51,141 nt of DNA, taken from assembly GCA_029218825.1 (NCBI GenBank), contig JAQXSC010000003.1, positions 1-51,141 of the forward strand, in the 5' to 3' direction. This DNA is from Oscillospiraceae bacterium (GTDB taxonomy: Bacteria; Bacillota; Clostridia; Oscillospirales; Acutalibacteraceae). Position numbers and translations under genes: made by a program. The notes under the pieces are model-generated. The model saw only the letters and a program-made list of their open reading frames with translations, was not told the origin of the DNA and ran no database searches. Below are positions 4,100-8,152 of the stretch, piece after piece (within the stretch, counting starts at the first letter, position 1; each line of letters begins with the position of its first letter).

Positions 4100-7000
4100 T
4101 TAAATTTCCACTGTTCCGTCAAATACTTTTTCTGCGTCGCCGGTCATATATACTGTATCGTCAGTATAGTTAATTACCAAATCGCCGCCCTTTAGTTTAA
4201 TTGTGATGTCCTCGCCCTTTTTGCAGAAGCCGTTTTCACAAGCCGCAACTGCAACTGCACAAGCACCTGTTCCACAAGCCCATGTTTCACCTGAACCACG
4301 TTCCCAAACTCTCATTTTGATTGTGTGGTCATTCAGCACCTTTACAAATTCCGTGTTTACACGTTCAGGGAAAATCGGATCATTTTCAAACTTCGGTCCG
4401 ATATCCTCAATGTCAAGGCCGTCAACATTGTCGATAAATACAACACAATGTGGGTTACCCATAGACACACAGGTTACGTTGTAATCCTCACCGCTGATAT
4501 TTACCTTTTCGTTAATCATTTTTTCCTTGTCGCATACTACAGGGATATTCTTTGGATTCAGTTCTGCCTTGCCCATATCAACACGAAGGCTCTTAACAAT
4601 ACCATCCTGTGTATATGCCTTTAGGTTCTTGATACCGCTTAAAGTTTCGATTGTGATTTCATCTTTTTCTTTTATATCAATCATATTGTGGTCGTAAAGG
4701 AATTTACCCACGCAACGGATACCGTTACCGCACATTTTTCCCTCACTGCCGTCAAGGTTGAACATACGCATTTTTGCATCGGCAACATCAGACGGACAAA
4801 CCAAGATAATACCATCGCCGCCGATACCAAAGTGACGGTCGGAAAGTCTTACGGAAAGTGCCTCCGGATTGTTGATTTCCTGGTCAAATGTACTGCAATA
4901 AATGTAGTCATTACCGATACCGTGCATCTTGGTGAACTTTAATTTCATCTTTTCAGACCTCATATTATTAATATCAATAAGTTCTGTGCTGTGTTGTGAA
5001 TATTTACTTCTCAAACAATCTGCAAGTGCCTTTGCAGTATCAAGAGAAGTAAGACAAGGAATATTTCTCTCTACTGTCTTACGACGGATTTTTACTGAAT
5101 CACGTGTTGGTATTCTGCCCTTTGCAGAGGTGGAAATAACATAGTTGATTTTACCGCTTTCGATTAGTGAAAGTGTGTTATTATTTTCGTCCTCGTGGAT
5201 TTTCTTAACTCTTACAGCGTCAATGTTGTATGGCTCTAATGCGTCGGCAGTACCTGTTGTAGAGTAGATTGTAAAGCCCATATCTGCATACATTTTTGCA
5301 ATATTGCCGATTTCCGCTTTGTCAGAATCACGAACGGAAACGAATACACCGCCACCGCGTTTCATTTTATAACCTGCGCCGATAAGACCTTTATACAGAG
5401 CCTCCTCGAGTGTTTCTGCAATACCTAAAACTTCACCTGTGGATTTCATTTCAGGGCCTAAATGGTTATCAACGTTTATGAGTTTTTCAAAACTGAATAC
5501 AGGCACCTTTACTGCAAAGTAAGGAGATTTCTTGTAAAGACCTGTGCCGTAGCCCATATCTTCAAGTTTTTCTCCAAGCATTGCGCGAGTAGCCAAATCT
5601 ACCATCGGAACACCTGTAACCTTACTTATATAAGGGATTGTACGTGATGAACGAGGGTTAACCTCGATAACGTAAAGTTCTCCCTTATAAATAAGGTACT
5701 GGATATTTACAAGACCTTTTGTCTTTAGTGAAAGCGCTAAATTACGAGTTGACTTGATAATTGTTTCCGTCATTTGGTCGGAAACATTCCAAGCAGGATA
5801 TACAGCGATTGAGTCGCCGGAGTGAACGCCTGCACGTTCAATATGCTCCATAATACCCGGAATAAGAATATCCTCTCCGTCACAGATTGCGTCAACCTCA
5901 AGTTCCGTACCCATAAGGTATTTATCAATCAGAATCGGATTTTCGATTTCCTGTGCAAGGATAATCGCCATATATTCCTTAACGTCTGCATCGTTAAAGG
6001 CGATAATCATATTCTGTCCGCCTAAAACGTATGAAGGACGGAGTAAAACAGGATAGCCGATTGTATTGGCAGCCTCAAGAGCCTCCTCGCAGGTCATTAC
6101 TGTAACGCCCTTTGCTCTTGCGATATTGTGCTTTTCAAGGAGTTCGTCAAAACGCTCTCTGTCCTCTGCCATATCAATAGCGTCATAGGAAGTACCTAAA
6201 ATATTTACACCGCTGTCGTCAAGGAATTTTGTCAACTTGATAGCAGTCTGACCGCCGAAGGCAACAACTACGCCGAATGGTTTTTCTGTTTGAATAATAC
6301 CCATTACGTCCTCGGTTGTTAAAGGTTCAAAGTAAAGTCTGTCTGCTGTGTCAAAGTCTGTGGAAACAGTTTCAGGGTTGTTGTTTACAATTACAACCTC
6401 GTATCCGGCTTTCTTTAATGCCCATACGCAGTGAACGGAGGCATAGTCAAATTCGATACCCTGACCGATTCTGATAGGGCCTGAACCGAATACTATTATG
6501 GTTTTCTTTTGGCTGTTTTTCTCCTGAATAAACTTCTCCGCCTCATTTTCTTTGTCATAAGTTGAATAGAAGTAAGGAGTTTCTGCGTTGAACTCTGCCG
6601 CACAGGTATCAACCATTTTATACACAGGAACTAAAGGATTTTCAACCTTTTGTCCGCTGAATTTCTCTATTGTTCTGTCAAGGAAGCCTACTTCCTTTGC
6701 TTTCAGATAAAGTTCTCTTGAAAGTTCGCCTTTCTTAAGTTCCTCGCCAACCTTTGAAATGTTGATGAGTTTTTCTAAAAACCACTCGTCAATCATTGTG
6801 ATTTCGTGGACTTTCTCTACGGAAACACCACGTTTCAGCGCCTCATATACACAGAACATTCTAAGGTCGTCACAAACGCTTAATCTGTCGATAACAGATG
6901 CGTCGGACATTTCCTCGAACATTTCATCGTCCATTGTATCGTGGGAAATTTCCGCACCTCTGATAGCTTTCATCATAGCCTGTTCAAAGGTTGGAGCAAT

Positions 7001-8152
7001 AGCCATAACCTCGCCTGTGGCTTTCATCTGTGTACCCAAAGAACGCTTTGCATATACAAATTTATCGAAAGGCCATTTTGGAAGTTTTACTACAACATAG
7101 TCTAAAGCAGGTTCAAAGCAGGCATAGGTTGAGCCTGTAACTGCGTTTTTGATTTCGTTTAATGTGTAGCCGATTGCGATTTTAGCGGCAACCTTTGCGA
7201 TTGGATAACCGGTTGCCTTTGACGCAAGGGCTGATGAACGTGATACACGAGGGTTAACCTCAATTACTGCATATTCAAAAGTTTCAGGGTTAAGGGCAAA
7301 CTGACAGTTACAACCGCCCTCTACCTTTAAAGCGGAAATAATATTAAGTGCTGCACTACGGAGCATCTGATATTCTTTATCGGCAAGTGTTACCGCAGGA
7401 GCGATAACGATACTGTCGCCTGTGTGTACGCCAACAGGGTCGAAATTTTCCATTGAACACACTGTAATAACGTTACCTAAAGAGTCACGCATTACCTCAA
7501 ATTCAATTTCTTTCCAACCGGAAATACATTTCTCAACAAGCACCTGAGTAATAGGAGAAAGTTCAAGGCCGTTTGAAGTAATCTCTCGCAAATCCTCCTC
7601 GTTATCTACAATACCGCCGCCTGTACCGCCAAGTGTAAAGGCAGGACGGATAATAACAGGGTAGCCGATTTTATCGGCAAATTTTACTGCCGATTCAACG
7701 TCGTTTACTACAGTTGAAGGGATAACAGGCTGGTTGATTTCAAGCATTGTGTCCTTGAACATCTGTCTGTCCTCAGCCTTGTCGATTGTTTCAGGAACAG
7801 CACCTAACAGTTTAACGCCGTGCTTTTCAAGAAAGCCCTCCTTTGCAAGTTGCATTGAAAGTGTAAGTCCTGTCTGACCGCCTAAAGTGGACAGAAGTGA
7901 ATCCGGCTTTTCTTTAATAATAATACGCTTTACGGTTTCCAAGGTTAAAGGCTCAATATAAACCTTATCTGCCATAGCGTTATCTGTCATAATTGTAGCA
8001 GGGTTTGAGTTTACAAGGATAACCTCAAGTCCCTCTTCTTTTAATGCACGACAAGCCTGTGTACCTGCATAGTCAAACTCCGCAGCCTGACCGATTACGA
8101 TTGGGCCTGAGCCGATTACCATTACACGTTTAATATCAGATTTTAGTGGCAT
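4100..8152 (-). CDS. carB-dapF: Carbamoyl-phosphate synthase large subunit fused to diaminopimelate epimerase
   Basis: One continuous 1350-codon frame encodes two unrelated enzymes. Residues 1 to about 1060 are a complete Car[18 protein letters not shown] opens the first ATP-grasp half, [17 protein letters not shown] the second at about residue 550, and an MGS-like regulatory domain ends near [11 protein letters not shown]. CarB joins bicarbonate, ammonia from CarA and two ATP into carbamoyl phosphate. Residues 1069-1350 are a full-length 282-residue DapF, with both catalytic cysteines at DapF positions 73 (KMCGNGIRC) and 225 (WACGTGAC), that is 1141 and 1293 of the fusion. DapF turns LL- into meso-diaminopimelate. 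The linker is only a few residues. An internal ATG at 4948 is preceded by a weak GAGG nine bases upstream, so free DapF might also be made. Both halves look intact. The fusion may be genuine, or the carB stop may have been lost by mutation or sequence error. Confidence 0.9.

Follow-up and report, generated by a model that had tools for sequence, protein, structure and literature searches.

A carbamoyl-phosphate synthase large subunit fused to diaminopimelate epimerase in Clostridia, with frequent loss of the first catalytic cysteine of the epimerase part

Carbamoyl-phosphate synthase (CPS) is a classic allosteric enzyme: nucleotides and ornithine are its known signals, and its MGS domain carries the allosteric control. 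Diaminopimelate epimerase (DapF) acts on LL-diaminopimelate (LL-DAP), which is made by DapL, and is bypassed by diaminopimelate dehydrogenase (Ddh). Here we describe a gene in which the large subunit of CPS (CarB) and DapF share one reading frame, found in a 51,141-nucleotide stretch of an Oscillospiraceae genome from a relative of Ruminococcus (assembly GCA_029218825.1, contig JAQXSC010000003.1; this whole stretch is called the window below). The fusion belongs among the multifunctional CPS proteins and the enzyme-derived regulatory domains. Like CAD and the fungal Ura2-type multienzymes it joins CPS to a further enzyme; the partners there belong to the pyrimidine pathway, whereas here the partner is a lysine/peptidoglycan enzyme. 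According to passages of one study, fungal CPS multienzymes and the aspartate transcarbamoylase (ATCase) of Pseudomonas aeruginosa carry an inactive dihydroorotase (PMC7053772), and another study describes E. coli DapF as a regulator of a second enzyme, RppH (PMC4227774). The RppH complex (6d13) is among the structure matches of the DapF part described here, but in that case the regulated enzyme is a separate protein and not a fused domain. No description of a CarB-DapF fusion was found in the literature searched, a search that most subscription journals fell outside; PMC3901274, PMC2383896 and PMC7326077 contain the names of both enzymes. As far as searched, three things are new: the partner, the spread of the fusion, and the loss of a single catalytic residue from a domain that keeps its contact residues.

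The gene and its parts are as follows.

4100..8152, minus strand: carB-dapF fusion gene, an ATG-to-stop frame of 1350 codons plus stop, without internal stop
4958..8152, minus strand: CarB part, residues 1-1065, through the conserved TELxDINxMR stretch
5048..5308, minus strand: MGS-like domain (Pfam PF02142), residues 949-1035, which forms the allosteric end of CarB
4934..5005, minus strand: junction, residues 1050-1073
4103..4948, minus strand: DapF part, residues 1069-1350 (TIGR00652 and fold match)
4730..4732, minus strand: codon of catalytic Cys1141, kept in the window
4274..4276, minus strand: codon of catalytic Cys1293
4946..4948, minus strand: internal ATG (residue 1069) with GAGG upstream

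The initial annotation had read this frame as a complete CarB followed, after only a few linker residues, by a complete DapF that has its two catalytic cysteines, and the open reading frame and model matches bear this out. CarB models match far above their cut-offs (NF003671, residues 1-1051, 1497 bits against 599; TIGR01369, 1456 bits against 1027), as does the DapF model TIGR00652 (residues 1072-1348, 305 bits against 114.65), and Pfam recognizes the two halves of CPS, its oligomerisation domain, the MGS-like (allosteric) domain and the DapF domain. The CarB part closes with a 10-residue stretch (1056-1065) and the DapF part starts at residue 1069, leaving hardly any linker. Signature motifs of both ATP-grasp halves, using patterns that we chose, were each present in 109-111 of 113 frames, and two misses (L076 and L092) were wrong open reading frame picks. 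Compared with bacterial CarB (E. coli 1bxr and kin), the fusion is alike over residues 1-1051, including both ATP-grasp halves and the MGS end, and differs in the added DapF, the listed solved CarB chains matching only to about residue 1052. Among the best 60 of 100 solved-sequence matches, DapF chains begin at about residue 1054 and no chain covers both CarB and DapF. Compared with free DapF (TIGR00652; 1bwz, 5m47), the DapF part is a complete domain that retains the fold, both cysteines and the residues predicted to contact diaminopimelate (DAP), but is joined to CarB. Because both cysteines are retained, the window protein does not have the pattern of a pseudoenzyme, in which a catalytic residue is lost and the pocket kept. 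No second CarB or DapF above cut-off was found in the window's genome, which comprises 119 contigs at 92.7% completeness.

Going beyond the initial annotation, we found the fusion to be spread widely through the class. We examined 181 fusion genomes spanning 41 family codes, drawn from an order sample and a class sample (394 and 391 genomes) as the best ~150 rows of each, so that weaker fusions were missed; outside this set stand G822, G939, G853, G1157, G596 and G928, which look or may look fused, as well as the fusions known only from the genus and best-contig-match scans. Within the genus, the fusion is full length and without a stop in at least 82 of 161 genomes, the window's own included (counted by eye among the matches listed). 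Among those matches, the other genus members include some with contig-cut pieces, many whose CarB stands alone (50-53% identity) and two that gave no match; at one locus (L218 in G069) the fusion match is broken by one TGA. Isolate records with the fusion include Ruminococcus albus KH2T6, Anaeromassilibacillus sp. An172 and Ruminococcaceae bacterium P7. Protein searches with the DapF part, restricted to long proteins, matched at least 6450 and 5990 entries in candidate sets capped at ~8000, and the named rows among the best 240 of these were carbamoyl-phosphate synthase large subunits, save for P0084 (diaminopimelate epimerase, partial), so that the DapF part goes unnamed in annotation. Plasmid records gave 116 matches to a 421-residue query, six at ≥80% coverage; the five plasmid rows listed of these 116 begin at query residue 115 or later and thus do not include the MGS domain.

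Across 291 loci with 277 distinct C-terminal sequences, the junction hardly varies in length: it has 24 residues in 288, and 31 in the three related genomes at L222, L225 and L229, which carry seven extra. The initial annotation had named a stop or frameshift at the junction, or a fusion confined to this one isolate, as grounds for abandoning it. Neither was seen, although carB and dapF are separate genes in part of the genus, and an assembly artefact or lone mutation is ruled out by the junction being open in many genomes. A claim that the junction is rigid was dropped, as its indel rate is just the median for windows of 24 residues and both structure models are unsure there; the indel-rate set included the two wrong frames noted above, which were mended for the junction and start counts. 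It had also been proposed that free DapF could be made from the internal ATG at 4948 with its weak GAGG. Both elements are present, but an ATG at residue 1069 with a Shine-Dalgarno-like word occurs in only 15 of 110 near loci, and a start that is not conserved across loci does not support general release of free DapF.

The first catalytic cysteine has been lost in most of the fusions examined. Cys1141 is kept in 59 and lost in 122 of the 181 aligned sequences, with Ala (79), Gly (23), Ser (12), Phe (7) or Thr (1) in its place. Cys1293 is kept in 117 of the 122 Cys1141-lost and 55 of the 59 Cys1141-kept fusions, and is replaced in nine of the 181 overall. Free DapFs, by comparison, kept the Cys1141 equivalent in 44 of 44 sequences, and those in fusion-bearing genomes kept both cysteines in 43 of 43; the two sets share three sequences, and none of the 84 distinct free DapFs lacks the first cysteine. 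In a second set, weighted toward near relatives and partly shared with the 181, 133 of 156 distinct fusions kept Cys1141. R. albus KH2T6 (L135) keeps both cysteines. Both cysteines were likewise kept in all of the best 120 protein matches to the window's own query, while the best 120 matches to a Cys-lost query, which include the isolate Dysosmobacter sp. Marseille-Q4140 with Ala at 1141, had Ala (108), Ser (7) or Gly (5) at 1141, Cys1293 in 120 of 120 and the contact residues in 113 to 120.

Passages of a study of Corynebacterium glutamicum DapF describe the positions that hold DAP, a large open/closed movement on DAP binding, and an almost complete loss of activity in C83A, the equivalent Cys-to-Ala change (PMC5296763). 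We mapped the contact positions from that structure, and nearly all are in place in the 122 Cys-lost domains: N1132 (122), G1142 (118), N1143 (118), N1233 (121), N1266 (120), E1284 (121), R1285 (119), G1294 (122) and T1295 (120). In keeping these substrate-contact residues the Cys-lost DapF part differs from the inactive dihydroorotase of the CAD/Ura2-type proteins. Asn1081, conserved in free DapFs, is Asp in 29 and Ser in two of the 122 in the alignment. The dN/dS of the DapF part was 0.012-0.21 in the 17 scorable of 19 Cys-lost pairs, with synonymous sites often near saturation, pointing to purifying selection after the loss. Since Cys1141 is gone and the C. glutamicum mutant is nearly dead, the majority of the 181 fusions are probably pseudo-epimerases with their contact residues retained.

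The state of the cysteine followed the other DAP genes of the genome, in counts that share ancestry and that come from many incomplete genomes, where the absence of a gene is uncertain. A free DapF was present in 79 of 122 Cys-lost and 11 of 59 Cys-kept genomes (Fisher p 4.9e-9). The search for DapL (model TIGR03542 only) and Ddh covered 80 of the 91 fusion genomes having no free DapF; the 11 outside it are all Cys-kept. DapL turned up in 33 of 37 genomes that keep the cysteine and 3 of 43 that have lost it (p 1.2e-14), or 20 of 23 and 3 of 27 when counted by genus (p 6.6e-8), and Ddh in 23 of 37 and 36 of 43. In 12 of the 37 tested Cys-kept genomes, DapL was present and neither free DapF nor Ddh was found. 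Two genera, g160 and g328, hold both cysteine states, and each fits the expected direction. The cysteine is thus often lost where no TIGR03542-type DapL was found or where the genome has a free DapF, and its retention appears, from this co-occurrence, to follow the need for an epimerase. At one locus (L352 in G294), a free dapF lies directly downstream of the fusion (1303-2223 and 2354-3700), and the first cysteine is kept in both.

A quick tree of the 181 fusions, built from the MGS and DapF parts with the trait columns omitted, placed the window inside a clade of 98 (SH-aLRT 100%), here referred to as type I, in which 59 fusions keep the cysteine and 39 have lost it; the other 83, type II, are all Cys-lost. 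The internal start with its Shine-Dalgarno-like word was found in 20 of 98 type I and one of 83 type II fusions. Given a free-DapF root and irreversible loss, the best tree has 15 cysteine losses, a number that is not firm because many forks are weak. In a DapF-only tree, fused and free sequences are split by one change with a branch support of 38, which is compatible with a single origin of the fusion. One locus of the same genus (L204 in G042, 2041-9933) has separate genes in the order pyrG-carA-carB-dapF-dapL, with a carB stop (TAG) that overlaps an AGGAGG and lies in frame with the dapF ATG, four codons ahead of it, an arrangement that pictures how the fusion could arise. Some matches had hinted at CarB letters upstream of certain free dapF genes, but the idea that free dapF genes are remnants of broken fusions was dropped, as no CarB remnant was seen upstream in the loci read, bar the complete carB of L204. 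Another locus (L213 in G767, 5257-9605) reads ANTAR-dapF-pyrG-dapL, which is the window gene order minus carA and the CarB part.

Our best reading of the window form is a bifunctional protein whose two active sites are complete by sequence, with LL-DAP predicted to come from the neighbouring dapL. Its DapF part is very likely a working epimerase on DapL-made LL-DAP, judging by the co-occurrence. The DapF part probably has a role besides catalysis, because the domain and its DAP contacts are kept after loss of the cysteine, and its retention as an apparent pseudo-epimerase elsewhere suggests a second role on CPS that is probably DAP sensing. In the mechanism we propose, DAP binding would close the two DapF lobes, and this closure would shift the adjacent allosteric (MGS) end of CarB, so that DAP occupancy would modulate CPS in either direction; the proposal arises because DapF closes on DAP and adjoins the MGS domain. 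Pyrimidine supply would thereby be matched to meso-DAP, which could be useful because the UDP-MurNAc peptide needs both UTP and meso-DAP. An effect of the fusion on CarB regulation, raised in the initial annotation, is thus plausible. For the window, the account of one 1350-residue protein that is predicted to carry out both reactions, with a DapF part that likely also serves as a DAP-binding regulatory domain on CarB, strikes us as evenly balanced between true and false. The wider account, in which the CarB of Clostridia bears a DapF-derived DAP sensor setting carbamoyl-phosphate output, the window form still being an enzyme and several lineages having independently become pure sensors by loss of one cysteine, is offered tentatively, as a proposal that may well be wrong.

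Several observations weigh against these accounts. The link between cysteine state and need has exceptions, of which the clearest is G207 (99% complete), which has Ala1141 and DapL but in which neither a free DapF nor Ddh was found. G483 and G690 have likewise lost Cys1141 with DapL present and no free DapF found, though G690 has Ddh and the G483 gene is interrupted by a contig end. Cys1141 is also lost in G626, G687, G790, G1174 and G908, where no DapL, Ddh or free DapF was found, kept in G708 and G548, where neither DapL nor Ddh was found, and kept in the 11 genomes that have a free DapF. An independent-pairs test for DapL gave six usable pairs, 2.6 in the same direction and none opposite, too few for significance, and one for free DapF alone gave 2.0 in the same and 0.5 in the opposite direction of seven; the use of a single DapL model counts on the same side. 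Four of the 59 Cys1141-kept fusions have Ser at 1293. The predicted Ddh in the window's own genome (C37, 16095-17069; TIGR01921, 475 bits), on another contig, means that the fused DapF is not the sole predicted route to meso-DAP. Cys-kept pairs had a dN/dS of 0.015-0.046 in six of seven, and Cys-lost pairs tend to be higher; the near-saturated synonymous sites add to the doubt. Structure predictions of fragments reached pTM 0.64 and 0.58, with a low-confidence junction that leaves the domain orientation undecided.

The alternative that survives best is a plain bifunctional enzyme, in which being fused only keeps CarB and DapF at equal levels and the epimerase part leaves CarB unaffected. Fusions of that sort are common in bacteria, and the reading accords with both catalytic cysteines in the window, with dapL in the same cluster and with cysteine retention tracking DapL; it leaves unexplained why the domain is kept in 122 of 181 fusions after cysteine loss, under purifying selection and with its contacts in place, and we consider it unlikely.

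The DapF part could otherwise be a dimerisation or stability module for CarB, its ligand binding being incidental. Three points fit such a structural role. In type II, conservation of the pocket residues does not significantly exceed that of the other residues conserved in free DapFs (p 0.23); of 68 such positions, 14 fall below 90% or have changed letter, N1081 and C1141 included, which gives room for retention by structure alone. A dimer-interface aromatic, which we mapped to the position of E. coli DapF Tyr268, is kept in 116 of 122 Cys-lost domains. A precedent exists in the pseudo-dihydroorotase of the Pseudomonas ATCase, the inactive chain being necessary for activity according to passages of PMC7053772. 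The first two points also count against DAP sensing, but we regard a purely structural role as rather improbable.

That Cys-lost domains still catalyse slow epimerisation or another one-base reaction through Cys1293 is very improbable: although Cys1293 is retained in 117 of 122 and one-cysteine members of the wider DapF fold family, which was matched here, exist (trans-3-hydroxyproline dehydratase being one), the replacements include five residues with no single new catalytic one among them, the C83A mutant noted above lost almost all activity, and the loss accompanies a lack of need (a free DapF, or no DapL).

The following rows complete the cluster around the fusion.

8196..9278, minus strand: carA (small subunit), 43 bases ahead of the fusion
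2491..4086, minus strand: pyrG (CTP synthase), its ATG 13 bases past the fusion stop with AGGAGG between
1287..2468, minus strand: dapL, LL-diaminopimelate aminotransferase (TIGR03542, 522 bits)
9310..9879, minus strand: ANTAR-domain response regulator ahead of carA

All lie on the same strand, with pyrG separating dapL from the fusion. Among 84 loci with flanks, part of them interrupted by contig ends, carA stood ahead of the fusion in 79 and dapL after it in 45 (hand-summed). The functional link to dapL put forward in the initial annotation is supported by this gene order together with the co-occurrence of DapL and a retained cysteine. Rfam at gathering thresholds gave no RNA switch match near the fusion operon; its sole match in the window was an S10-Clostridia ribosomal protein leader at 33893-33969 on the minus strand (50.7 bits). 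Open reading frames at 10004-15027 (minus strand) resemble, by eye, a glutamate synthase split into domain-sized genes plus a ferredoxin-like one, and a 697-aa frame at 15458-17551 (plus strand), also judged by eye, may be a glutamine synthetase.

For annotation, these results call for a correction, since proteins called CPS large subunit contain an unnamed DapF part. This part is the only DapF found in some genomes and probably no epimerase in others, so that predictions of the lysine/DAP pathway are skewed both ways. If the proposed regulation is true, pyrimidine and arginine synthesis would be tied to the supply of cell-wall and lysine precursors, and CPS would have a new signal input, running from cell-wall precursors to pyrimidine supply, in bacteria whose records often carry titles of rumen or gut samples.

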